Made by a program: the position numbers and the translations under genes. 64,000 nt of DNA, taken from contig NZ_CP107845.1 of NCBI RefSeq assembly GCF_041431415.1, positions 2,976,001 through 3,040,000 on the forward strand, given 5' to 3'. This DNA comes from Streptomyces sp. NBC_00513 (GTDB lineage: Bacteria; Actinomycetota; Actinomycetes; Streptomycetales; Streptomycetaceae). This document shows positions 17,156 to 27,964 of this stretch, in pieces. The stretch's first letter is position 1; every line of letters starts with the position of its first letter. Under the pieces are notes generated by a model. The model searched no databases. It saw only the letters and a list, made by a program, of their open reading frames with translations, and was not told where the DNA came from.

Positions 17156-18562
17156 GTGGCCATCACATCACGCGCGCCCGCGCCCGGCGGCGGTGTCTCC
17201 GCACCGCCCGCCGGGCCGCCCGCGGGAACGCCCGAACCGCCCGGCCGGGGAACGGCCTGGGCCGAGGGCGTGGACCTGCTGCGTGAGGCGGCGACCACCG
17301 AACCGGGCCGGCTGCGGATCATCGGGGCCGTGCTGGCCGCCCTGGTCGTGCTGTTCGGCGCGGTCACCGTGTGGGAGATCTCCGACCGGGCCACCGCCGC
17401 CGACGACGTGGTGGGCCACAGTCAGCCGCTCAGCGCGGACGCGGCGAACATCTACCGCTCACTCGCGGATGCGGACACGGCCTCCTCCAGCGGCTTCCTC
17501 GCCGGCGCCCAGGAACCCCGCGAGGTTCGCCAGAGGTACGAGAAGGACATCGCCAACGCCTCCCGGCTGCTGGTGAGCGCGGCGGCCAACACCGGCGCCG
17601 GCGGGGAGTCCCGCAAGGAGATAGCGCTCCTCGGCGAGGAGCTGCCCCGCTACACCGGGCTGATCGAACAGGCCCGGGCCACGAACCGGCAGGGGCTGCC
17701 GCTCGGCGGCGCCTACCTGCGGTACGCCAACGAGCGCATGAGCACCGTCTTGTTGCCGGCGGCCCAGCGGCTCTACGAGGCGGAGACGGGGCGCCTCTAC
17801 ACGGACTACGACGACGCCCGCTCCTGGCCGTTCGCCTCGATCGGCGCGGGTCTGCTCGGCATCGGCGCCCTGGCGTGGGCGCAGCGACGCAACTACCGGC
17901 GCACCAACCGGGTCTTCAACCACGGCCTCGTCGCGGCGACGGCCGCCTCGGTCGTGGTGCTCCTGTGGCTCGTCGTCGGGACCACGGTCGCACGATCGGG
18001 GCTGAGCGAGGCCCGGTCGGACGGGCAGGAGTCCCTCAAGGTCCTCAACGACGCGCGGATCGCCTCCCTCCAGGCGCGGGCCAACGAGAACCTGACGCTG
18101 GTCGCGCGGGGCGCGGTGCTGGCCGAGGACAAGAAGTCCGACAAGTACGACGTGGACTACACGAAGAACATGAAGGAACTGGACACCCGGCTGTCGGCGG
18201 CGCTGCGGCTGGCCGACGACGACAGCGGCGAGGAACCCGTCTCCAAGGCCGTCGCCGGTGTGACGCAGTGGAAGCAGCGGCACGCCTCGGCCCGGGAGAG
18301 CGACATGCGGGGCGACTACGATCTCGCGCTGGTCCAGGTGGTCGGCGACAAGGACCACAAGGACAGCAGCGGGGCCTCCTTCGACACCGTGGACGCCTCC
18401 CTGGAGCAGGCCGTGGTCCACGAGCAGCGGGAATTCACTCAGGCGGCCCGGGGCGGACTCGGGGCGCTGGGCGGGCTGACGACGGGAGCGGCGGCCCTGG
18501 CGGTCGTCGGCGCGGCGGCGGCACTGCTCGGCATCGGTCGCAGGCTTTCGGAGTACAGGTGA
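17156..18562 (+). CDS. glnX: GlnX-like membrane sensor protein
   Basis: A 468-residue protein starting at GTG 17156 with a strong GAGGGGGAGG site. Four membrane helices are visible: about 52-72 (IIGAVLAALVVLFGAVTVWE), 224-240, 258-280 (AATAASVVVLLWLVVGTTVA) and 440-462. Two charged, mainly alpha-helical regions (about 75-220 and 283-435) lie between helices 1-2 and 3-4 and would be outside the cell. This topology and the downstream GlnH-PknG genes match mycobacterial GlnX (Rv0412c type), which passes amino-acid signals from GlnH to PknG. The next gene overlaps it by 4 bp (GTGA). Confidence 0.82.
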   Translation: MAITSRAPAPGGGVSAPPAGPPAGTPEPPGRGTAWAEGVDLLREAATTEPGRLRIIGAVLAALVVLFGAVTVWEISDRATAADDVVGHSQPLSADAANIYRSLADADTASSSGFLAGAQEPREVRQRYEKDIANASRLLVSAAANTGAGGESRKEIALLGEELPRYTGLIEQARATNRQGLPLGGAYLRYANERMSTVLLPAAQRLYEAETGRLYTDYDDARSWPFASIGAGLLGIGALAWAQRRNYRRTNRVFNHGLVAATAASVVVLLWLVVGTTVARSGLSEARSDGQESLKVLNDARIASLQARANENLTLVARGAVLAEDKKSDKYDVDYTKNMKELDTRLSAALRLADDDSGEEPVSKAVAGVTQWKQRHASARESDMRGDYDLALVQVVGDKDHKDSSGASFDTVDASLEQAVVHEQREFTQAARGGLGALGGLTTGAAALAVVGAAAALLGIGRRLSEYR

Positions 18563-19650
18563 GATCGATGCGGATACGAGCGGGGCGCGACCAGGGGCAC
18601 GGAGCGGACGGCGACGCCGGCGCGGACGGCCGGACCGGCGCCGACGGCGTCCCCGGGGCGGGCGGACTGCGACGGGTGACGCGCCGCCTGCGCGGCTGGG
18701 GCGGGGTGAGCGCCATGGCCGCCGCCTGCGCGGTGACGGCCGTCGTCGTGCTGCTGCCACTGGCCCACGCCACGCCGGACACCGGCGGTTCCGGCCCGGT
18801 CCGCCCACCCGCCACGATGGCCATCGCGCCGGCGGGCCCGACCGACACCTGCCAGGACCCGGAGGCCAGCCTGCGCCCGTCCGGCGTCGACGGCCCGACC
18901 ATCGAGCGGATCCGACAGGCGGGCAAGCTCGTCGCGGGCGTGGACCAGAACAGCTTCAAATGGGGCTACCGCAATCCCGACGGCCACCTCGACGGCTTCG
19001 ACATCGCGCTGGTGAAGGCCATCGCCAAGGACATCCTGGGCGACGAGAACGCGGTGATCTACCGGGCCATCCCCACCAGCCAGCGCGTGCCGGCCCTCCA
19101 GGAGAACCGCGTCGACGTCGTCGTGCGGACCATGACGATCAACTGCAAGCGGCTGGAGGACGTCGCCTTCTCGACGGCGTACTTCGAGGCGGGGCAGCAG
19201 GTCCTGGCTCCCAAGGGTTCGCCGATCACCGGGTACGACGCCTCCCTGAACGGCCGCCGGATCTGCACGGCGACCGGTTCCACCGCCGAGGCCGCGCTCA
19301 AGTCCCGGTCGTACGGGTCCCGGTCCGTCTCCGTGTCGAACCAGCTGGACTGCCTGGTGCGCCTCCAGCTCGGCGAGGTGGACGGCATCATCACGGACAA
19401 CGCCCTCGCCGCCGGCCAGGCCGCGCAGGACCCCTCGGTGCAACTGGTCGGTTCCCCGTTCACCCGGGAGTTCTACGGCATCGCGATGAACAAGGACGCC
19501 TCCGATCTGGTGCGCCGGGTCAACAAGGTGCTGGAGGACTACCGCGCGGGCGGCGACGGCAGCCCCTGGATGCAGTCCTACCGCAAGCACCTGGAGGCCG
19601 TGCTGCCCAAGGTGACCGCCCCGCCCGCGCCCAAGTACCGGGACGGCTGA
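18559..19650 (+). CDS. glnH: GlnH-like amino-acid-binding protein of the PknG pathway
   Basis: A 363-residue protein. A basic, glycine-rich N-terminus is followed by a membrane segment (SAMAAACAVTAVVVLLPLAH), then an SBP_bac_3 domain (about 110-350). Typical motifs are IRQAGKLVAGVDQNSFKWGY, GFDIALVKAIAKDILG, DVVVRTMTINCKRLEDVAFS and LGEVDGIITDN. Unlike most binding proteins it has no lipobox, so it is probably anchored by an uncleaved helix. No ABC permease or ATPase gene is near, which argues for sensing rather than transport. Mycobacterial GlnH binds Asp/Glu; that specificity is only an inference here. GTG 18559 is preferred (GGAG 5 bp upstream); ATG 18568 is the alternative. Confidence 0.85.
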   Translation: MRSMRIRAGRDQGHGADGDAGADGRTGADGVPGAGGLRRVTRRLRGWGGVSAMAAACAVTAVVVLLPLAHATPDTGGSGPVRPPATMAIAPAGPTDTCQDPEASLRPSGVDGPTIERIRQAGKLVAGVDQNSFKWGYRNPDGHLDGFDIALVKAIAKDILGDENAVIYRAIPTSQRVPALQENRVDVVVRTMTINCKRLEDVAFSTAYFEAGQQVLAPKGSPITGYDASLNGRRICTATGSTAEAALKSRSYGSRSVSVSNQLDCLVRLQLGEVDGIITDNALAAGQAAQDPSVQLVGSPFTREFYGIAMNKDASDLVRRVNKVLEDYRAGGDGSPWMQSYRKHLEAVLPKVTAPPAPKYRDG

Positions 19651-19676
19651 GGCCCGTGACGGAGGCAGAGCCCTAC

Positions 19677-21038
19677 ATGAGCGGTGTGGTCGGACCGGGT
19701 CGTCCGCAGGAGGGTGCGGCGGTCATGGACGGGGAGGACGTGGACCGCGCGCTGAGCCGTCTCGGCGCGGAACACGAGGCGGTCGAGACCTCCCTGCTGG
19801 CCCTCCAGGACCACTCCGGGCGGCGACTGCTGGAGGGCGCCGCGCTCACCGGGGTCACGAAGGAGCGGTGGACCGCCGCCGACACGGCGATCACCCGACT
19901 GTGGACGCTCTTCGACGCCTACAGCGGGGCGCTGCGCGCCGCCCGGGAGATCCGCGAACGGCGCCGCCGGCCGAGCCGCGAGGACCTGGTCGAGTTGACG
20001 GAGCGGCTGCGCGGGCCAGGGGTGCTGATCGCCGGCGCCGGGGTGGAGGGCGCCGCGCTCGCCGAGCGGCTCTCGCTGGCGGAGCTGGTGGCCCGGATGA
20101 ACGGGTTGTACGCGTCCTCCCTGGACGTGGTGGTCGCCGCCGACGCGGTCTGGTCGGCGCTGCCCGCGCGGATCGACCTGCTCGCCGCCGAGCTGCACCG
20201 GACGCGCTCCCTGGCGCGCTCGGTGGGCATCCGGCCGGGCGAGCACCCGTCGGGGGACGACCTGGAGGACATCACCGCCGAGCTGACGGAGCTGCGCGCG
20301 CGGGTGATCGCGGATCCGCTGGCGTTCTGGTCGGCGGCCGCGGGGAGTTCCGCCCCGGGCGGCGGCCGCCCGGACACCGGGCGCTACGACCGGGCGGCCC
20401 GCGCCCTGGACGACGTACGCCGGGAGATCGAGGCGGTCCTCGACGTGCGGCAGGACTCCGAGCAGCGGCTGATCAGCCTGCGGGACGTGCTCTCGCGGGC
20501 CGACCGGACGCTGGCCGAGGCGCGGACGGCGCGCGGCGAGGTGCTGGCGAAGATCGCGGCGTCGGAGGTGCCCGCGGTCAGCGGGCCGCCGACCGCCCTG
20601 CAGGAACAGTTGGCCGCGGCGGCCGAGTACCGGCGGCAGTCGCAGTGGCACCGGTTGTCGCCCCTGTTGGAATCGCTGGAGGAGCGGGCCGACGAGGAAC
20701 TGCGCAGGGCCCGTGAGTCGTTGACGGCCGTGACGGCCCCGCTGGCGGTGCGGGCGGAGCTGCGCGGCCGGCTGGACGCGTACAAGGCGAAGGTGGCCCG
20801 GCTCGGGATGGCGGAGGATCCGCTGCTCATCGAGCGGTACGACACGGCCCGAAGGATGTTGTGGAGCGCTCCCTGCGATCTGCGGGCCGCCGAGGAGGCC
20901 GTGCTGCGCTACCAGTGGGCGGCGGCCGAATCGTCGGCCCCACCGCCGCCGCGGCACGCACCGCTCCCGCCGGGCACGGCGCCCGCCGACCGCTCCGATG
21001 AACACCGGCCCCACCGGCCGGGGAAGGATGACGCATGA
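19677..21038 (+). CDS. Coiled-coil protein of unknown function between glnH and pknG
   Basis: About 453 residues from ATG 19677 (GGAGG 11 bp upstream); in-frame GTG 19656 and a later ATG are alternatives. It has no signal peptide or membrane helix. Most of the protein is charged, leucine-rich alpha-helix, for example ETSLLALQDHSGRRLLEGAA, REIRERRRRPSREDLVELTE and DSEQRLISLRDVLSRADRTL, suggesting long coiled coils. The tail is proline-rich and basic. I do not recognise a family. It is locked into the operon by an ATGA overlap with pknG, so it is probably a cytoplasmic scaffold or adaptor between the GlnX/GlnH sensor and the kinase. Confidence 0.8.
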   Translation: MSGVVGPGRPQEGAAVMDGEDVDRALSRLGAEHEAVETSLLALQDHSGRRLLEGAALTGVTKERWTAADTAITRLWTLFDAYSGALRAAREIRERRRRPSREDLVELTERLRGPGVLIAGAGVEGAALAERLSLAELVARMNGLYASSLDVVVAADAVWSALPARIDLLAAELHRTRSLARSVGIRPGEHPSGDDLEDITAELTELRARVIADPLAFWSAAAGSSAPGGGRPDTGRYDRAARALDDVRREIEAVLDVRQDSEQRLISLRDVLSRADRTLAEARTARGEVLAKIAASEVPAVSGPPTALQEQLAAAAEYRRQSQWHRLSPLLESLEERADEELRRARESLTAVTAPLAVRAELRGRLDAYKAKVARLGMAEDPLLIERYDTARRMLWSAPCDLRAAEEAVLRYQWAAAESSAPPPPRHAPLPPGTAPADRSDEHRPHRPGKDDA

Positions 21039-23806
21039 GCCCGAGCGGAACCGCGTGCGGTCGCCCCGGCTGCCCGGGGACGTACGAGGACATGGGTGGC
21101 GGCGAGCTGTACTGCGACACCTGCGGGCTGGCGCCGATCGGCTCCGTCGCGGCGGGTGCGGAGGAGCTGGTCTCGCCGCCGACGGGGATGACGAGCGCGG
21201 CGCGCCACGGTGACTCCCCGGGCTCCGCGGGCTCTCGGGGCTCGGAGCGTTCGGGCTCCTCGGCCTCCGCGCGCTCCTCACGGTCCTCCCGGTCCTCCTC
21301 CTCGCGGCGTTCGGTGTCCGGGCGGCTGTCGCGGTCCCTGTCGGGGGCCGCCTCCGCCCGCTCGGTGTCGGTGCGCAGTTCGGGCTCGGCACCCTCGGTC
21401 TCGGGGCGCGGCCGGCTCGGGGCCGGGCTGGTGAACGTACCGGAGGTGCCCCGTCCGGATCCCTCGGCGGCGGTGCTGGAGAACCCGGAGGTCCCGGAGC
21501 GCAAGCGGTTCTGCTCGCGCTCGGACTGCGGGGCCCCGGTGGGCCGGGCGCGCGGCGAGCGGCCGGGCCGGACGGAAGGGTTCTGCACCAAGTGCGGGCA
21601 CCCGTACTCCTTCGTGCCCAAGCTGCGTGCCGGCGACGTGGTGCGCGGCCAGTACGAGGTCGCGGGCTGCCTCGCCCACGGCGGGCTGGGCTGGGTGTAC
21701 CTGGCGGTGGACCGGGCGGTCTCGGACCGCTGGGTCGTCCTCAAGGGCCTGCTGGACACCGGCGACCAGGACGCGATGGAGGCGGCGATCTCCGAGCGGC
21801 GCTTCCTCGCGGAGATCGAGCACTCCAACATCGTGCGAATCTACAACTTCGTGGAGCACCTGGACCAGCGGACGGGTTCGCTGGACGGGTACATCGTCAT
21901 GGAGTACGTCGGCGGCAAGTCGCTGAAGGAGATCGCCAACGAGCGCCGCCGGCCGGACGGCAGACGCGATCCGCTGCCGGTGGAACAGGCCTGCGCGTAC
22001 GGGATCGAGGCGCTGGAGGCGCTCGGCCACCTGCACAGCAGGAACCTCCTGTACTGCGACTTCAAGGTCGACAACGCGATCCAGCAGCAGGACCAGCTGA
22101 AGCTCATCGACATGGGCGCGGTCCGCCGGATGGACGACGACGAGTCGGCCATCTACGGCACGGTGGGCTACCAGGCCCCGGAGGTCGCGGAGACGGGCCC
22201 GTCGGTGGCCTCCGACCTGTACACGGTGGCGCGCACGCTGGCCGTGCTGACCTTCGACTTCCAGGGCTACACGAACGTGTTCGTGGACTCCCTGCCCGAT
22301 CCCGAGCACATCGAGGTCTTCGGGCGGTACGAGTCCTTCTACCGGCTGCTGGTACGGGCCACCGACCCCGACCCCGGGCGGCGGTTCGCCTCCGCGCAGG
22401 AGATGGCCGACCAGCTGACCGGGGTGCTGCGCGAGGTCGTGGCGCTGCAGACGGGCAAGCCCCGGCCGCAGTTGTCCACCCTGTTCGGGCCGGAACTGCA
22501 CGTCCCCGACAACCGGTTGTTCGCCGACGAGGCGGGGGCGGAGGCGTCCCGGCTGGGGGCGCGCTCCACCGCGCCGAAGGGCCGACACGGGCGATCCGGG
22601 CGGACCGCGCCGGCGCCGGTCGTCGCCGTCCCGCCCGCGCCGGTGCCCGCGCCGACGGGCCCGGTACCGACGGGGTCCGGGCCGGTGGCGTCCGTGTTCG
22701 CCGGGGGCGCGCCCGCGTCGGCCCCGGCGGCCGTCCTGGGGACCACCGCCACGCACGTGTCGGCCGCGGCGCCGCTCCTGCCCCGGCAGGCGGTCGCCCC
22801 GGTCGCGCCCGCCCCGGGCCCGACCCTCCTGTCCGCGCCGGTGCCCCGGCAGGCCCACGGGCCGCTGCACGCCGGCATCGGCCTCGCGATCCTGGACGCC
22901 CGGAGCGCGGCGCTGGCCCTGCCGGTGCCGTTGGTGGATCCGGCCGACCCCAACGCCGGGTTCCTGACCGGCCTGCTCGCCTCCGCTCCCGCCGACCTGC
23001 TCGGCGCGCTGGGTGCGGCGCCCGCCGACTCGGCCGAGCTGCGGCTGCGAGAGCTGCGGGCCCGGCTCGAACTGGGCGAGTTGGCCGTGGCCGGACAGGC
23101 CCTGCTCGAACTGGAAGTGCGACATCCGGACGACTGGCGGGTGGTGTGGACGCGCGGCATCGCCTCGTTGGCGATCGGGGACGACGAGACGGCCGCCCTG
23201 TCCTTCGACGCGATCTACGACGCCTTTCCGGGCGAGCCGGCGCCGAAGCTGGCGCTGGGCCTGTGCGCGGAGGTCCTGGGCCAGTTGGACAACGCCGCCG
23301 AGTACTACCGGCTGGTGTGGATCACCGATCCCGGTTTCGTCAGCGCGGCCTTCGGGTTGGCCCGGGTCCAGTTGGCCGCCGGCGACCGGGCCGGGGCCGT
23401 ACGCACCCTCGAATCGGTGCCGGAGGCGTCGATCCACCACACCGCCGCCCGGGTGGCGGCCGTACGGGCACGCCTGCGCGACCGCTCCCCTGAGGAGGCG
23501 CTGCTGCCCGACCTGACGGCGGCTGCCGCGCAGGTCGAGGCGTTGGCGCGGTTCGGGCTCGACGCCGAACGGCACGAACGGCTGTCGACCGAGGTTCTGG
23601 GGTCGGCGCTGGACTGGGTACTGTCGGGTGGCCGGGGTGCAGACCCCGGTCGGACCTCGTTGCTCGGCAGTCAACTGGACGAGCGGGGGCTGCGCTTCGG
23701 CTTGGAGCGCTCGTACCGCGTCCTCGCTCGGCTGGCGCAGCGGGGCGAGGAGAGGATCGAACTGGTGGAGCGGGCAAACCGTTTCCGTCCCCGGACGTGG
23801 GTGTGA
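21035..23806 (+). CDS. pknG: Serine/threonine protein kinase PknG
   Basis: A 923-residue soluble kinase. Order: a zinc ribbon (about 7-32, CGRPGCPGTY and YCDTCG), a Ser/Arg-rich linker (60-125), a second zinc ribbon (about 155-190, FCSRSDCG and FCTKCG), a kinase domain (about 200-475), a Pro/Ala-rich linker, and a TPR domain (about 640-923). The glycine loop is CLAHGGLGWVY, the ATP lysine is in VVLKGL, and the metal site is DMG, as expected for the PknG family. The catalytic loop reads YCDFKVDN: the Asp, Lys and Asn are kept, but Val replaces the usual Pro. In mycobacteria PknG controls glutamate metabolism by phosphorylating GarA. Here it is coupled to phosphatase, VWA and FHA genes. Confidence 0.95.
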   Translation: MSPSGTACGRPGCPGTYEDMGGGELYCDTCGLAPIGSVAAGAEELVSPPTGMTSAARHGDSPGSAGSRGSERSGSSASARSSRSSRSSSSRRSVSGRLSRSLSGAASARSVSVRSSGSAPSVSGRGRLGAGLVNVPEVPRPDPSAAVLENPEVPERKRFCSRSDCGAPVGRARGERPGRTEGFCTKCGHPYSFVPKLRAGDVVRGQYEVAGCLAHGGLGWVYLAVDRAVSDRWVVLKGLLDTGDQDAMEAAISERRFLAEIEHSNIVRIYNFVEHLDQRTGSLDGYIVMEYVGGKSLKEIANERRRPDGRRDPLPVEQACAYGIEALEALGHLHSRNLLYCDFKVDNAIQQQDQLKLIDMGAVRRMDDDESAIYGTVGYQAPEVAETGPSVASDLYTVARTLAVLTFDFQGYTNVFVDSLPDPEHIEVFGRYESFYRLLVRATDPDPGRRFASAQEMADQLTGVLREVVALQTGKPRPQLSTLFGPELHVPDNRLFADEAGAEASRLGARSTAPKGRHGRSGRTAPAPVVAVPPAPVPAPTGPVPTGSGPVASVFAGGAPASAPAAVLGTTATHVSAAAPLLPRQAVAPVAPAPGPTLLSAPVPRQAHGPLHAGIGLAILDARSAALALPVPLVDPADPNAGFLTGLLASAPADLLGALGAAPADSAELRLRELRARLELGELAVAGQALLELEVRHPDDWRVVWTRGIASLAIGDDETAALSFDAIYDAFPGEPAPKLALGLCAEVLGQLDNAAEYYRLVWITDPGFVSAAFGLARVQLAAGDRAGAVRTLESVPEASIHHTAARVAAVRARLRDRSPEEALLPDLTAAAAQVEALARFGLDAERHERLSTEVLGSALDWVLSGGRGADPGRTSLLGSQLDERGLRFGLERSYRVLARLAQRGEERIELVERANRFRPRTWV

Positions 23807-23809
23807 TTG

Positions 23810-25390
23810 ATGTCGATGCATCGGCCGTCGGGCTGCCCCAGCTGCGCTGAGCCCCTGGAAGAGGGGGACCGTTTCTGCGGCGTGTGCGGATACGCCCTCT
23901 CTTCCCCAACCGCGTCTGCGGATCCCGACCCGACCCTCCCGATCACCGCGCCCGAACCCGCGCCGCCGGGCAACGCCGGTGCGGGTCGCGGCGCCACCGG
24001 GTATCCGGCCGGCGCGCCCGCGCCGGGCTGGGGCAGTGTCGCGGGCGCCGCCCCGACCCTCGTCGGGGACCCGGCCGGCTGGACCGGCGCACCGGCTCGG
24101 TCGACTCCCGACGCACCGTGGGGCCCGGTTGGGACCGCGTACGGCTCGTCCCCGGAGCAACAGCCGAGCCACGCCGCCGCGCAGGGCCCTTCGGACGGCC
24201 GCGGCGCGTCGTACGGCGCCGCCGCCGCGCCCCCCGAGGGCGCTCCCTGGGGGGCCGCCGAACCGCCGTCCGGGCACCCCGAGCCCCCGGCCGGGCACCC
24301 GGTCGACGGATCCGACCGGGCCCACGAGGCGCCGGCCGGTCCCGCCCCGCACGGCTTCGGCGACGCGGGCGAGCGGTACGACCCGCCCGTCCCGGCGCCC
24401 GCCGCTCCCGTAAGCGCGGGCGCTCCCGCGAGCCCCGCCGGTGGCGACGCCGGCAAGACCTGCGTGGCCTGCCGCGCCGGCCGGGTGGACACCGACGGGT
24501 ACTGCGAGCACTGCGGCCACGCCCAGCCCCGCGAGCGCGACCACCTGGAGGAGGAGCTCGGCAGCGTCGCCGCGGTCAGCGACCGCGGGCTGCGCCACCA
24601 CCGCAACGAGGACTCCTTCGCGGTGGCCGCGACGGCCCTTCCCGACGGTTCCGCGGCCACCGTGGCGATCGTCTGTGACGGCGTCTCCTCCGCCAGCCGT
24701 CCCGACGAGGCCTCGGCCGCCGCCGCCGGCGCCGCCAACGAGGCGCTGTTGGAGGCTCTCCCCCGGGGCGCGCACCCCGTGGAGGCCATGCACGAGGCGA
24801 TCCTGGCGGCGGCCGCCGCGGTGAACGCACTGGCCCCGGAGGTGCCCGGCGCCCAGAACGCCCCGGCCTGCACCCTGGTCGGCGCCGTGGTCAGCGGTGG
24901 GTTGCTCACCATCGGCTGGGTCGGGGACAGCCGCGCGTACTGGGTTCCCGACGACCGGGCCGCGCTTCCCCGGCGGCTCACCGAGGACGACTCCTGGGCG
25001 GCCCAGATGGTCGCGGCCGGCCTGATGGGCGAGGCCGAGGCGTACGCCGACGCCCGGGCCCACGCCATCACCGGCTGGCTCGGCGCCGACGCGTACGACC
25101 TCGAACCGCACACCGCCAGTTTCAAGCCCGACCACCCGGGTGTGGTCGTGGTCTGCACCGACGGGCTGTGGAACTACGCCGAGTCCGCCAGGGATCTGGC
25201 CAGGATCCTGCCGCGGGACGCGGCGGTCCGGCCGCTGCACAGCGCGCAGGTACTGGTCGGGCACGCCCTCGACGGGGGTGGCCACGACAACGTCACCGTG
25301 GCCGTCGTGCCGTTCTCGGCCCTGCCGGACGCACCGCCGGCGGCACGACCGGAACCGCAAGCGGAAGCGGATCCGCGCGCCCAGGCCTGA
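23810..25390 (+). CDS. Zinc-ribbon PP2C-type Ser/Thr protein phosphatase
   Basis: A 526-residue protein. An N-terminal zinc ribbon (CPSCAEPLEEGDRFCGVCGY) is followed by about 180 residues of low-complexity Pro/Gly/Ala linker. A second zinc ribbon (CVACRAGRVDTDGYCEHCGH, about 222-241) precedes a PP2C domain (about 250-510). The metal-binding Asp motifs are all present: DRGLRHHRNEDSF, VCDGVSSASRPDEAS, GWVGDSRAYWV, CTDGLWNYAES and GGHDNVTVAVV. It should remove phosphate from Ser/Thr and is the natural counter-enzyme to PknG, whose gene ends 3 bp upstream. Starts at TTG 23807 or ATG 23816 are also possible. Confidence 0.93.
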   Translation: MSMHRPSGCPSCAEPLEEGDRFCGVCGYALSSPTASADPDPTLPITAPEPAPPGNAGAGRGATGYPAGAPAPGWGSVAGAAPTLVGDPAGWTGAPARSTPDAPWGPVGTAYGSSPEQQPSHAAAQGPSDGRGASYGAAAAPPEGAPWGAAEPPSGHPEPPAGHPVDGSDRAHEAPAGPAPHGFGDAGERYDPPVPAPAAPVSAGAPASPAGGDAGKTCVACRAGRVDTDGYCEHCGHAQPRERDHLEEELGSVAAVSDRGLRHHRNEDSFAVAATALPDGSAATVAIVCDGVSSASRPDEASAAAAGAANEALLEALPRGAHPVEAMHEAILAAAAAVNALAPEVPGAQNAPACTLVGAVVSGGLLTIGWVGDSRAYWVPDDRAALPRRLTEDDSWAAQMVAAGLMGEAEAYADARAHAITGWLGADAYDLEPHTASFKPDHPGVVVVCTDGLWNYAESARDLARILPRDAAVRPLHSAQVLVGHALDGGGHDNVTVAVVPFSALPDAPPAARPEPQAEADPRAQA

Positions 25391-25422
25391 TCTTCGACCG
25401 ATCCTCCGAGGGAGTCCCATCG

Positions 25423-26751
25423 ATGGCGAACTTCGCCAAGCCGAGCGCCCCGCGCTTCAGCGTGGAGGTGTACCAGAACGAGTTCCTTCCCGAGGGCGGC
25501 CGCGACGTCCACGCCATCGTCACGGTCACCTCCAGCGGCGGGGCCACCGCCACCCGGGCCGCCGTCCCCGCTCCCGGCGGGGCCGCGGTCGTGATCATGG
25601 TGGACTGTTCCGGGTCCATGGAGTACCCGCCGGACAAGATGCGCGGTGCCCGCGAGGCCACGGCCGCCGCGATCGACACCCTGCGCGACGGCACCAGCTT
25701 CGCGGTGATCGCCGGCACGCACGTGGCCAAGGAGGTCTATCCCGGTCAGGGCCGGCTGGCCACGGCGGACGCGGTGACCCGCGCGCAGGCCAAGGAGTCC
25801 CTGCGCGGCCTCGGTTCGGGCGGCGGCACCGCCATCGGGACCTGGCTGCGGCTGGCCGACGGGCTGCTGCGGCAGTCCCCGGCCACGATCCGGCACGGGA
25901 TCCTGCTCACCGACGGGCGCAACGAGCACGAGGAACCGGCCGTGTTGCGCGCCACCCTCGAAGCCTGCGCGGGCCGCTTCACCTGCGACGCGCGCGGTGT
26001 GGGCACCGACTGGGAGGTGAAGGAGGTGACCGGCATCGCGAGCGCGCTGCTCGGCAGCGCCGACATCGTCGCCGATCCCGCGCACCTCACCGAGGACTTC
26101 ACGCGCATGATGGAGAACGTCATGGGCAAGGAGGTCGCGGACGTCGCCCTGCGCCTGTGGACCCCGGTCGGCGTGGAGATCCAGTACGTGAAGCAGGTCG
26201 CGCCGACCGTCCAGGACCTGACCGACCGCCGCACCGAGGCCGGCCCGCGGGCCGGGGACTACCCGACGGGTTCGTGGGGCGACGAGTCCCGCGAGTACCA
26301 CGTGTGCGTCCGGGTCCCGGGGGCGGCCATCGGGCAGGAGATGCTGGCGGCCCGCGCGACGCTGATCGTGCCGGACACGGCGGGCGGGGCGCCGACCGTC
26401 CTCGCCCAGGGTCTGGTGCGGGCGGTGTGGACCGACGACCTCGTCGCTTCCACGGCGATCAGTCCGCAGGTGGCGCACTACACCGGGCAGGCGGAGCTGG
26501 CCCAGGCCATCCAACAAGGTTTGGAAGCGCGCAAACTGGGTGATGTCGATGGTGCGACGGCCAAACTCGGACGCGCGGTACAACTGGCGAGCGCGTCCGG
26601 CAACGCGGACACTGCCAAACTGCTGGCGAAGGTGGTGGATGTCGTGGACGCGGCGGCAGGTACTGTGCGGCTGAAAGCGAAGGTCGCCGATGCCGACGAG
26701 ATGACCCTTGAAACGCGTTCGACGCAGACCGTCCGAGTGAAGAAGACCTGA
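25423..26751 (+). CDS. VWA-domain protein of the PknG operon
   Basis: A 442-residue cytoplasmic protein (no signal peptide or helix). After a beta-rich N-terminus, a von Willebrand A domain spans about 50-220. The MIDAS metal site is complete: VDCSGSM (about 60-66), GGGTAIGTWL and LLTDGRNEHEEP. The remaining half is beta-rich, then helical (GLEARKLGDVDGATAKLGRA, AKLLAKVVDVVDAA). VWA proteins usually act as metal-dependent assembly platforms. Its position between phosphatase and FHA genes suggests it scaffolds the kinase module. The exact role is unknown. Confidence 0.88.
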   Translation: MANFAKPSAPRFSVEVYQNEFLPEGGRDVHAIVTVTSSGGATATRAAVPAPGGAAVVIMVDCSGSMEYPPDKMRGAREATAAAIDTLRDGTSFAVIAGTHVAKEVYPGQGRLATADAVTRAQAKESLRGLGSGGGTAIGTWLRLADGLLRQSPATIRHGILLTDGRNEHEEPAVLRATLEACAGRFTCDARGVGTDWEVKEVTGIASALLGSADIVADPAHLTEDFTRMMENVMGKEVADVALRLWTPVGVEIQYVKQVAPTVQDLTDRRTEAGPRAGDYPTGSWGDESREYHVCVRVPGAAIGQEMLAARATLIVPDTAGGAPTVLAQGLVRAVWTDDLVASTAISPQVAHYTGQAELAQAIQQGLEARKLGDVDGATAKLGRAVQLASASGNADTAKLLAKVVDVVDAAAGTVRLKAKVADADEMTLETRSTQTVRVKKT

Positions 26752-26797
26752 GAAGAGACCTGCGGCGATGACGCAGGGAGAAGGGGGAAGCGTAGCC

Positions 26798-27964
26798 ATG
26801 CCGACCTGCCCGAACGGGCACCAGTCCGCCTCCGAGGACTGGTGCGAGGTCTGCGGCCACCGCATGGCTGCCGCCACGAGCGCCCCCGCGGCGCCTTCCT
26901 ACGGCTACGGCTACCCTCCCACGGCCGGTGAGCCGACCGCGCAGGCGGAGCTGTGCCCGCAGTGTCGGACCCCGCGCGAGGCCATGGCCCCGTTCTGCGA
27001 GGAGTGCCGGTACAACTTCCTGACGCGTTCGGCGACTTCGTACACGCCGCTCGCCCAGGAGACGGGCCCGGCCGCGGGCACCGGGAGCGTGGGCACCCCG
27101 CCGCCGCAGGCCCCGCCGGCCTTCTCGCAGGACCACTTCGACTACCAGGGCTCGCGGCCGTCCCGGGTCAACCGACCGGCCGAGCCGCTCCAGCGCGAGG
27201 ACGACTGGCTGCTGCCGCCTCCCTCGCACGAGCAGCAGGCACACGGGCAGCAGGCACACGGGCAGCAGGGACACCAACAGCCCTCGCACCAGCAGCAGTC
27301 GCACCGACAGCAGCCCGTGCAGCAACCCCTCCAGCAGGAGTACCAGCAGCCGCACTATCAGCAGCAGCCTCCGCCGCAGCAGCAGGAGTACCAGCAGTCT
27401 CCGCAGGCACAGCAGTCGCAGGGGCAGCATGCGCAGCAGGAGTACCAGCAGCACTCGCAGCATCAGCAACAGCAACAGCAGGTCCCGCAGCATCAAGCAC
27501 AGCAGCACCAGCAACAGCAGCACTACGGGTCCCAGGGTCAGGCCCCGTCCCTCGGCAACGGTGCCTGGAGCGCGACGGTCGGTCCCGACCGCTCGTACTT
27601 CCTGGCGATGATGCGGCGCAGCGGCCCCGAGGCGGCCGGGTTGAACATGCCCGCGTACTCGCCCGAGCAGCACCTCGCGCTCTCCGGCGGTCAGATCACC
27701 ATCGGCCGGCGGCGCGCCTCCTCGGGCGAGTCCCCGGACATCGACCTCTCGGTGCCCCCCGAGGACCCGGGCGTCTCCCACCAGCACGCGGTGCTCGTCC
27801 AGCAGCCCGACGGGAGCTGGGCGGTGGTGGACCAGAACTCCACCAACGGCACCACCATCAACGGCGGTGAGGAACCGATCCAGCCGTACGTCCCGATCCC
27901 CCTCGGCGACGGCGACCAGGTCCACGTCGGCGCCTGGACCACGATCACCGTCCGTCGGGGTTAG
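26798..27964 (+). CDS. FHA-domain protein with zinc ribbons and Gln/His-rich linker
   Basis: About 388 residues from ATG 26798 (GGGGGAA upstream; ATG 26768 is an in-frame alternative). Two N-terminal zinc ribbons (CPNGHQSASEDWCEVCGH; CPQCRTPREAMAPFCEECRY) are followed by a very Gln/His-rich linker (about 140-245, repeats such as QQEYQQ and AHGQQ). The C-terminal FHA domain spans about 275-388: TIGRRRASSGESPDI, GVSHQHAVL, NSTNGTTING. FHA domains bind phosphothreonine, so it is the likely reader or substrate of PknG, analogous to GarA. However, I see no GarA-like ETTS phosphorylation motif in its N-terminus. Its stop overlaps the stop of the convergent methyltransferase gene. Confidence 0.9.
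   Translation: MPTCPNGHQSASEDWCEVCGHRMAAATSAPAAPSYGYGYPPTAGEPTAQAELCPQCRTPREAMAPFCEECRYNFLTRSATSYTPLAQETGPAAGTGSVGTPPPQAPPAFSQDHFDYQGSRPSRVNRPAEPLQREDDWLLPPPSHEQQAHGQQAHGQQGHQQPSHQQQSHRQQPVQQPLQQEYQQPHYQQQPPPQQQEYQQSPQAQQSQGQHAQQEYQQHSQHQQQQQQVPQHQAQQHQQQQHYGSQGQAPSLGNGAWSATVGPDRSYFLAMMRRSGPEAAGLNMPAYSPEQHLALSGGQITIGRRRASSGESPDIDLSVPPEDPGVSHQHAVLVQQPDGSWAVVDQNSTNGTTINGGEEPIQPYVPIPLGDGDQVHVGAWTTITVRRG

Follow-up and report, generated by a model that had tools for sequence, protein, structure and literature searches.

Signalling through the kinase PknG is understood from work on mycobacteria and Corynebacterium, in which the phospho-reader GarA/OdhI is encoded separately and the described three-gene operon is without a phosphatase (PMC6069109, PMC9769921). 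The operon GlnX-GlnH-PknG is reported to be conserved through the PknG-bearing Actinobacteria, with GarA as an established PknG substrate in mycobacteria (PMC6069109); in the main text of that article the word phosphatase is absent and FHA occurs once, in a reference title. Corynebacterium also has the three genes, and its OdhI is dephosphorylated by the phosphatase Ppp (PMC9769921). Here we describe an extended form of this operon in a window of 64,000 nucleotides from Streptomyces sp. NBC_00513 (contig NZ_CP107845.1; G000:C1:2976001-3040000; host genome 8.6 Mb), in which the analysed interval 17156-27964 holds seven plus-strand genes in the order glnX, glnH, ccp, pknG, pp2c, vwa and fha, the name ccp being coined in this analysis for the third, helical protein. 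The seven genes have a single order in Streptomyces and are widely conserved, and they fall into halves that occur separately. We lean towards reading the locus as a nutrient-signalling operon with two separable halves, one of them consisting of ccp, PP2C and FHA protein, of which the mycobacterial operon would be a reduced form. No published account of the seven-gene set was found in the literature searched, figures and subscription papers being outside its scope (the STRING Fig. 2B of PMC6069109 may show neighbours). The genes are as follows.

17156..18562, plus strand: glnX, GlnX-family signal transduction membrane protein, 468 amino acids
18568..19650, plus strand: glnH, extracellular solute-binding protein family 3 (Pfam SBP_bac_3, 7.8e-24)
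19656..21038, plus strand: ccp, conserved helical protein, starting at GTG 19656 or ATG 19725
21035..23806, plus strand: pknG, kinase with an extra N-terminal ribbon, rubredoxin domain, kinase domain and TPR part
23807..25390, plus strand: pp2c, predicted Ser/Thr phosphatase with two zinc ribbons and the motifs CDGVS, GDSR, TDGL and GHDN
25423..26751, plus strand: vwa, von Willebrand factor type A protein with a complete MIDAS (Pfam VWA_3 and VWA_3_C)
26768..27964, plus strand: fha, protein with two zinc ribbons, a Gln-rich linker and a C-terminal FHA domain, starting at ATG 26768 or 26798

A preliminary description of this DNA had proposed a seven-gene set with a GlnX-GlnH-PknG core, followed by a PP2C phosphatase, a MIDAS-complete VWA protein and an FHA protein; this is confirmed, the seven frames lying as given there and on the plus strand. 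PknG matches Pfam PknG_rubred, Pkinase and PknG_TPR (2.8e-90) and the solved structure 2pzi (9.2e-171), and its catalytic Lys, Asp, Asn and Asp are all present (Lys in VVLKGL, 21734-21751; YCDFKVDN, 22052-22075; LIDMGAV, 22103-22123). The phosphatase matches PP2C_2 (3.5e-12; 46.8 bits, cut-off 24) as well as an NCBIfam model; the MIDAS residues D61/S63/S65, T136 and D164 are invariant in 38 of 38 VWA proteins of the Streptomyces set, and the solved structure 4fx5 is a homologue of the VWA protein (E 1.8e-135); the FHA protein matches Pfam FHA (1.6e-15; 57.7 bits, cut-off 20.7) and has the motifs IGR, SHQH and TNGT. At the level of sequence, the kinase and the PP2C have the residues expected in active enzymes, the VWA protein has a complete MIDAS, and the FHA domain has the residues expected for phospho-binding. 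The same description had read gene overlaps as a sign of one message; the ccp/pknG overlap exists and is the sole true one, but the remaining genes are merely close or abutting, with gaps, in order, of 5, 74, -4, 0, 32 and 16 bp, the 74 shrinking to 5 if ccp starts at GTG 19656. No promoter-like and no plus-strand terminator-like site was found inside the operon by a scan built on sigma-70 promoters and T-tailed stems, which suits Streptomyces poorly. The host genome has 34 kinase domains (E <= 1e-15), 5 PP2C_2 matches and 12 FHA domain matches, and just two of these kinase domains have a PP2C within 5 kb, that of this PknG and the one at C1:3990411 (locus near 3985900-3991200), the latter probably a PknB-type locus to judge from its two adjacent FHA matches and PP2C neighbour. 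Because only two kinase domains have a PP2C nearby, and because the gene order recurs across many families, the clustering is not due to chance; since a second kinase-PP2C-FHA place exists in the genome, the arrangement is of a known kind and its novelty is the formation of such a cluster round PknG.

Within Streptomyces the set is nearly constant. A contig scan of genomes gave at least 590 stretches encoding a relative, of which the 80 best were retained, 79 under the title Streptomyces and a single one under 'Actinobacteria bacterium'. All seven genes stand in the same order on one strand in 68 of these 80 loci; in the other 12 the contig stops 0-315 bases past the pknG frame or, in L057, at 2893, with only fha missing. 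A loss of pp2c considered for L063, L071 and L077 was ruled out, as the frames are intact with PP2C motifs and are detected by the profile. The closest named relative across all seven genes among the best 80 loci is Streptomyces sp. WM4235 (L002), with 97-100% identity. PknG_TPR was found in 185 of 196 genomes of the order and in 110 of 295 of the class; in the latter draw 58 of the 67 places encoding ccp lie within 6 kb of a PknG_TPR match, so that the view of ccp as an insertion before pknG gives way to that of a conserved partner.

Beyond the Streptomyces set, 97 usable further pknG loci, mostly other than main Streptomyces copies and non-random within families (the majority of f3 genomes and of Streptomyces main copies and part of the f78 copies lie outside the sample), were scanned with profiles from the Streptomyces set that were then widened. 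Five loci with too little downstream contig (L103, L141, L156, L159 and L162) were set aside, leaving 92, and two stubs of 10 and 20 bases (L186 and L213) were unused. A partner was counted when a profile match at E <= 1e-4 lay on the strand of pknG within 8 kb, hence truncated VWA proteins (L094, L107) and a weak one (L139) score as present. Under this rule 44 of the 92 loci have pp2c, vwa and fha in cis, 64 have at least one of them and 28 have none, the all-three loci being spread over ten family codes: 6/6 main copies in f1, 4/4 in f99, 6/6 in f7, one of one each in f73, f83, f93 and f41 (the last belonging to another class), 15/21 in f77, 8/21 in f78, 0/2 in f97 and 1/16 in f3, with 0/11 and 0/1 among second copies in f1 and f99. 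A survey of actinobacterial genomes had been proposed as a check in the preliminary description; once run, it finds the partners to be other than sporadic, with the order kept in the Streptomyces set and all three partners in nine other family codes, a conservation stronger than could be known from the one sequence. Family f3 is most likely the mycobacterial one, judging in part from its layout, and glnX-glnH are retained in 13 of its 15 partner-free loci. In f77 the layout is ccp-pknG-pp2c-vwa-fha-glnX-glnH, with the sensor genes downstream of fha and not upstream. Second copies in Streptomyces and f78 often read ccp-pknG-vwa with or without fha and without pp2c, and others are solitary. VWA is the least constant member: L142, L143 and L145 have no match in the interval from pp2c to fha, L139 has a weak scrap there and nothing more, and L094 and L107 retain the C-terminal part alone, the losses and truncations falling in several f77 loci and in L107 of f83. 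Six loci of Streptomyces and f99 (L113, L117, L175, L179, L180 and L181) hold a second-type PknG-like kinase with an N-terminal ribbon next to a VWA protein and no pp2c, and L212 (f78, G339) holds ccp-kinase-pp2c-vwa-fha with a kinase that does not match the TPR part of the PknG profile. Among viral contigs, four stretches match a search pattern and none encodes a relative of the PknG kinase domain.

The two halves of the operon are seen apart in genomes that have lost one of them. Three Streptomyces genomes without a PknG_TPR match (G295, G500 and G528), the only ones of the genus in the class draw, all have ccp (3/3), followed in the usual order by the PP2C and FHA genes; the order draw shows seven further Streptomyces genomes without pknG. 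L208 (G295) has mere fragments of glnX, glnH, pknG and vwa; in L209 (G500) scraps of the pknG end alone remain of the lost genes; and L210 (G528) gave no match to any of the four, with 19 bp between the ccp and pp2c frames (the search for glnX and glnH in L208-L210 covered these stretches, with about 7 kb of upstream sequence). A fourth case, L211 in the f78 genome G443, keeps vwa too and has pknG end scraps and sensor-gene fragments, the genome holding another pknG locus, L166. The PP2C motifs are complete in all four. In a ccp+PP2C tree of 49 rows L208 lies in one Streptomyces group and L209 and L210 lie elsewhere as sisters (support 95), which implies two or more losses within Streptomyces and a further one in f78. 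For the pair L209 and L210 the ratio of nonsynonymous to synonymous substitution rates (dN/dS) is about 0.35 for ccp, 0.37 for PP2C and 0.50 for FHA, which speaks for constraint on the three proteins, part of which may predate the losses. The reverse state occurs in L147 (f77), which keeps pknG-glnX-glnH and has no ccp, pp2c, vwa or fha. Taken together, L208-L211 and L147 suggest that a sensor-kinase half (glnX-glnH-pknG) and a ccp-PP2C-FHA half can part.

PknG, PP2C and FHA protein had each been said to carry two zinc ribbons, and these are found in the window and in most loci of the Streptomyces set. Their positions, with that of a motif in the PknG linker, are given below.

21056..21124, plus strand: extra zinc ribbon at the PknG N-terminus, undetected in 15 of 16 PknGs of the mycobacteria-like family
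21173..21199, plus strand: SPPTGMTSA, a Thr-Gly motif in the variable linker behind that ribbon
21512..21595, plus strand: PknG rubredoxin-type ribbon (Pfam PF16919, 1.6e-31)
23834..23887, plus strand: PP2C ribbon 1
24461..24514, plus strand: PP2C ribbon 2, of DGYC type, by eye resembling the PknG N-terminal ribbon of other families
26807-26854 and 26954-27007, plus strand: the two ribbons of the FHA protein

Exactly two pattern-detected ribbons are present in PknG at 79 of 81, in PP2C at 68 of 73 and in FHA at 65 of 69 Streptomyces-set loci with the gene found, the window included; the patterns miss some ribbons, and in L089 even the rubredoxin ribbon escapes them. By eye, a DGYC pattern is common to the N-terminal ribbon of PknG and the second ribbon of PP2C in many non-Streptomyces loci. 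A [PAS]TG motif follows the N-terminal ribbon within 40 amino acids in 71 of the 75 Streptomyces-set PknGs with a pattern-detected ribbon, the linker being otherwise variable, and it is possible that this Thr-Gly motif serves as an autophosphorylation and FHA docking site; the PP2C and FHA linkers outside Streptomyces showed no conserved Thr motifs by eye. Across the 92 loci the PknG N-terminal ribbon and partner presence are concordant in 80, with both present in 54 and both absent in 26; of the 12 discordant loci, 10 have a partner alone and 2 the ribbon alone. L107, where the contig breaks off inside pknG on the N-terminal side, is counted among the 10 without being a true test. A simple Fisher test gives 1e-12 for related loci that are not independent. 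On the PknG tree (kinase and TPR, 98 rows, quick method) ccp follows the partners in 6.3 of 7 independent pairs with none opposite (median p 0.031, range 0.0156-0.125). In the same tree the 15 solo f3 PknGs form one group (support 100), whose sister (support 99) is L133 (G505:C144), a full seven-gene set in an f3 genome that has two solo pknG loci elsewhere. Partner loss in the f3 line is likeliest, because the set is present in most other large groups, and the balance tips, if not conclusively, towards the three-gene mycobacterial operon being a reduced descendant of the extended form.

The third protein, ccp, has no Pfam and no NCBIfam match. Its homologues number 2596 at E <= 0.001, and none of the 120 listed has a Pfam domain; its AlphaFold model (pLDDT 86.7) is mostly helix, and a C-terminal motif ELRGRLDAY lies at 20757-20783. 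A Foldseek search against the PDB was empty at E <= 0.001, and a second look gave only generic helical matches; a spectrin-like or EzrA rod is a possible fold. In L097 (4705-6675, plus strand) a ccp-like C-terminal motif is fused behind what looks like a trypsin-like serine protease domain by eye, adjoining a second-type pknG and vwa. The FHA protein has two paralogues elsewhere in the host genome by its own profile, in L128 (5411-6454, plus strand, 1e-154) and L129 (6003-6959, minus strand, 2e-134), and neither 13 kb stretch has a further match to a module profile.

GlnX has hydrophobic segments at residues 50-77, 253-284 and 435-453; it passes the NCBIfam subfamily model NF058618 (480.4 bits, cut-off 250) and fails the equivalog NF041460, 'protein kinase G-activating protein GlnX' (192.2 bits against a cut-off of 780). 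The best PDB match of GlnH is M. tuberculosis GlnH (6h1u/6h2t, 1e-54), after which pocket positions are numbered and residue roles assigned (PMC6069109). In the window GlnH R147, T162, R169 and D250 are kept and K161R, S164T and W232Q are changed. R147 and D250 hardly vary between families (position 250 has T in 4 f78 rows and N in 2 f77 rows), T162 becomes N in f7 and f93, and 5 of 20 f77 rows have another residue in place of R169. At position 232, W stands in 13 of 14 f3 rows, Q in 80 of the 81 Streptomyces-set rows with a residue there and Y in 20 of 20 f77 rows, while f78 is mixed. The amino-acid clamp appears to be retained, and the side-chain preference may differ from that of M. tuberculosis GlnH; since Trp232, which contacts Asp in the M. 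tuberculosis protein (PMC6069109), is Gln here, Asp/Glu sensing is not established for Streptomyces GlnH. At the GlnH N-terminus (window 18568-18800) a hydrophobic segment ends in AHA with no Cys right behind it, and no lipobox was recognised by eye.

GarA is a separate gene in the host genome (L122, G000:C1:1602500-1605500, minus strand), with a zinc ribbon directly before its ETTS phosphorylation motif. The module FHA protein is not a GarA/OdhI member by the OdhI equivalog model (20.7 bits against a cut-off of 200). A GarA ribbon is likely in 96 of the 139 GarA-bearing class genomes counted: 0 of 12 in mycobacteria-like f3 genomes, 37 of 38 in other PknG genomes (the exception being G312) and 59 of 89 in genomes without PknG. 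The ribbon was read from the alignment start, G038 and G341 were set aside for internal stops, and PknG status was taken from the 295-genome draw, assumed to include these genomes. In an initial set of 20 chosen PknG genomes it was present in 16 of 16 from f1, f99, f77, f78, f73, f7, f93 and f41 and in 0 of 4 from f3/f97, one of these four, G505, nonetheless having one full module. The GarA ribbon as a mark of the module was rejected for its presence in the PknG-less genomes.

From these data it is proposed that, on the model of mycobacteria and Corynebacterium, GlnH would bind an amino acid outside the membrane and GlnX would relay its state to PknG in the cytoplasm; the kinase would then phosphorylate itself and clients, probably including GarA from its separate gene. 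PP2C would reset the phosphorylation, and the FHA protein would bind phospho-threonine made by PknG or by other kinases. As a helical rod, ccp may hold PP2C and FHA protein, with the zinc ribbons of PknG, PP2C and FHA as likely docking parts, and glnX-glnH-pknG and ccp-PP2C-FHA would be separate working halves, each able to occur alone. We favour this extended operon because the order is kept in Streptomyces loci, partners stand in cis elsewhere, ccp lies near PknG_TPR, ribbon and partners agree, L133 is sister to the solo f3 PknGs, ccp-PP2C-FHA is kept in L208-L211 and a GarA with ETTS is present. Several observations weigh against it. The ribbon-partner link rests on few events (3.7 of 7 independent pairs the same, 0 opposite, median p 0.125); five f78 loci hold pp2c, vwa and fha with no PknG N-terminal ribbon, none was found by pattern in L089 (f77), and the GarA ribbons of PknG-less genomes show that ribbons are not specific to the module. 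Several all-partner loci, for example L092, L094, L109, L110, L119 and L120, have no detected ccp. Among the loci without the kinase the FHA motifs are complete in three of four, L211 lacking NGT, the FHA proteins of L209 and L211 show a single detected ribbon each, and the sister position of L209 and L210 allows three loss events and not four. As to reduction, the next outward branch of the PknG tree is L096 (f97, support 91), a glnX-glnH-pknG locus without partners, so that under reduction either the partners were lost twice or the set came back in L133; the tree has no root, the branch of L133 is long, and gene transfer is possible, among others for L112, the copy from another class.

A bolder form of the extended-operon reading, which we hold only tentatively and on the whole doubt, is that the ancestral actinobacterial system had a phosphatase, a phospho-reader, a VWA protein and a helical rod joined through matching ribbons, that the mycobacterial pathway is its stripped remnant, and that the ccp-PP2C-FHA half is independent; within it, this half would survive PknG loss because other kinases feed it too. 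The partners may instead be a service set for GarA, with PP2C as a dedicated GarA phosphatase and the FHA protein competing with or guarding GarA, so that they tune the 2-oxoglutarate branch point. The ribbon beside the ETTS motif of the host GarA and the standing of GarA as a PknG substrate (PMC6069109) favour this, but so many PknG-less genomes have the GarA ribbon, and GarA is so much more widespread (141 of 148 class genomes) than PknG_TPR, that we regard it as unlikely.

The preliminary description had read the locus as a self-contained sensor-writer-eraser-scaffold-reader complex, and in its obligatory form the seven products would be one machine. The conserved order and tight spacing, the ribbons on three members and the tracking of pknG by ccp are all consistent with it; however, L208-L211 lost the kinase and the neighbouring sensor genes and kept ccp, PP2C and FHA, VWA is missing or domain-less in some f77 loci and in L107 of f83, second-type loci read ccp-pknG-vwa without pp2c, and 15 of 16 f3 loci have the kinase without any of the partners. 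This weakens the claim; such a machine is distinctly unlikely, and a physical complex of the seven products is only a prediction from sequence. That the locus serves in stress or conflict, in the manner of the kinase-PP2C-vWA genes beside GAP1-N2 GTPases, is very improbable, since PADLOC recognises nothing outside the PknG kinase part (the remaining six proteins match 0 families) and PknG_TPR, unlike patchy defence genes, is near-universal in the order; no profile search aimed at nearby GTPase genes was made. That the genes are co-transcribed for convenience, with no functional link, is scarcely credible given that pp2c, vwa and fha lie beside pknG in ten family codes and stay with it even where the sensor genes moved, in f77.

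If an eraser and a reader are indeed encoded in the operon of many other actinobacteria, among them antibiotic producers, mycobacteria are the exceptional case and Streptomyces becomes the organism in which to study the passage of nutrient signals through PknG; what ccp-PP2C-FHA does can be tested directly in the genomes that lost the kinase naturally. The switch has practical weight: in Saccharopolyspora a GarA lacking the phosphorylation motif increased the yield of antibiotic (PMC12321487).

The module shares features with several known systems. Like GarA/OdhI, its FHA protein would work with PknG, and the host GarA is ribbon-bearing as well; the module protein differs in having two ribbons and, by eye, no ETTS motif, and GarA is a separate gene. 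The PknB-type cluster of the same genome (G000:C1, about 3984900-3991200) also has a kinase, a PP2C and two FHA domains in about 6 kb, but its kinase is of another type; VWA and ccp were looked for only in its 4 kb stretch L124. PknB-type kinases are associated with PASTA domains and the cell wall. The VWA homologue 4FX5 was deposited as 'von Willebrand factor type A', a listing that gives no function. The kinase-PP2C-vWA genes beside GAP1-N2 GTPases combine an active kinase with a zinc ribbon, a PP2C and an adjacent standalone vWA, and differ in being described beside GTPases, section 29 of that article naming no PknG, GlnX/GlnH or FHA (PMC7159879). Closest is the mycobacterial and Corynebacterium GlnX-GlnH-PknG operon, with which the locus shares the GlnX subfamily, the GlnH fold, the PknG domain set and the position of the sensor genes beside the kinase (PMC6069109, PMC9769921). 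GlnH differs from the mycobacterial protein at three pocket positions and from the Corynebacterium lipoprotein (PMC9769921) in its N-terminus, and the Streptomyces operon adds to the described one four more conserved genes and an extra N-terminal PknG ribbon.

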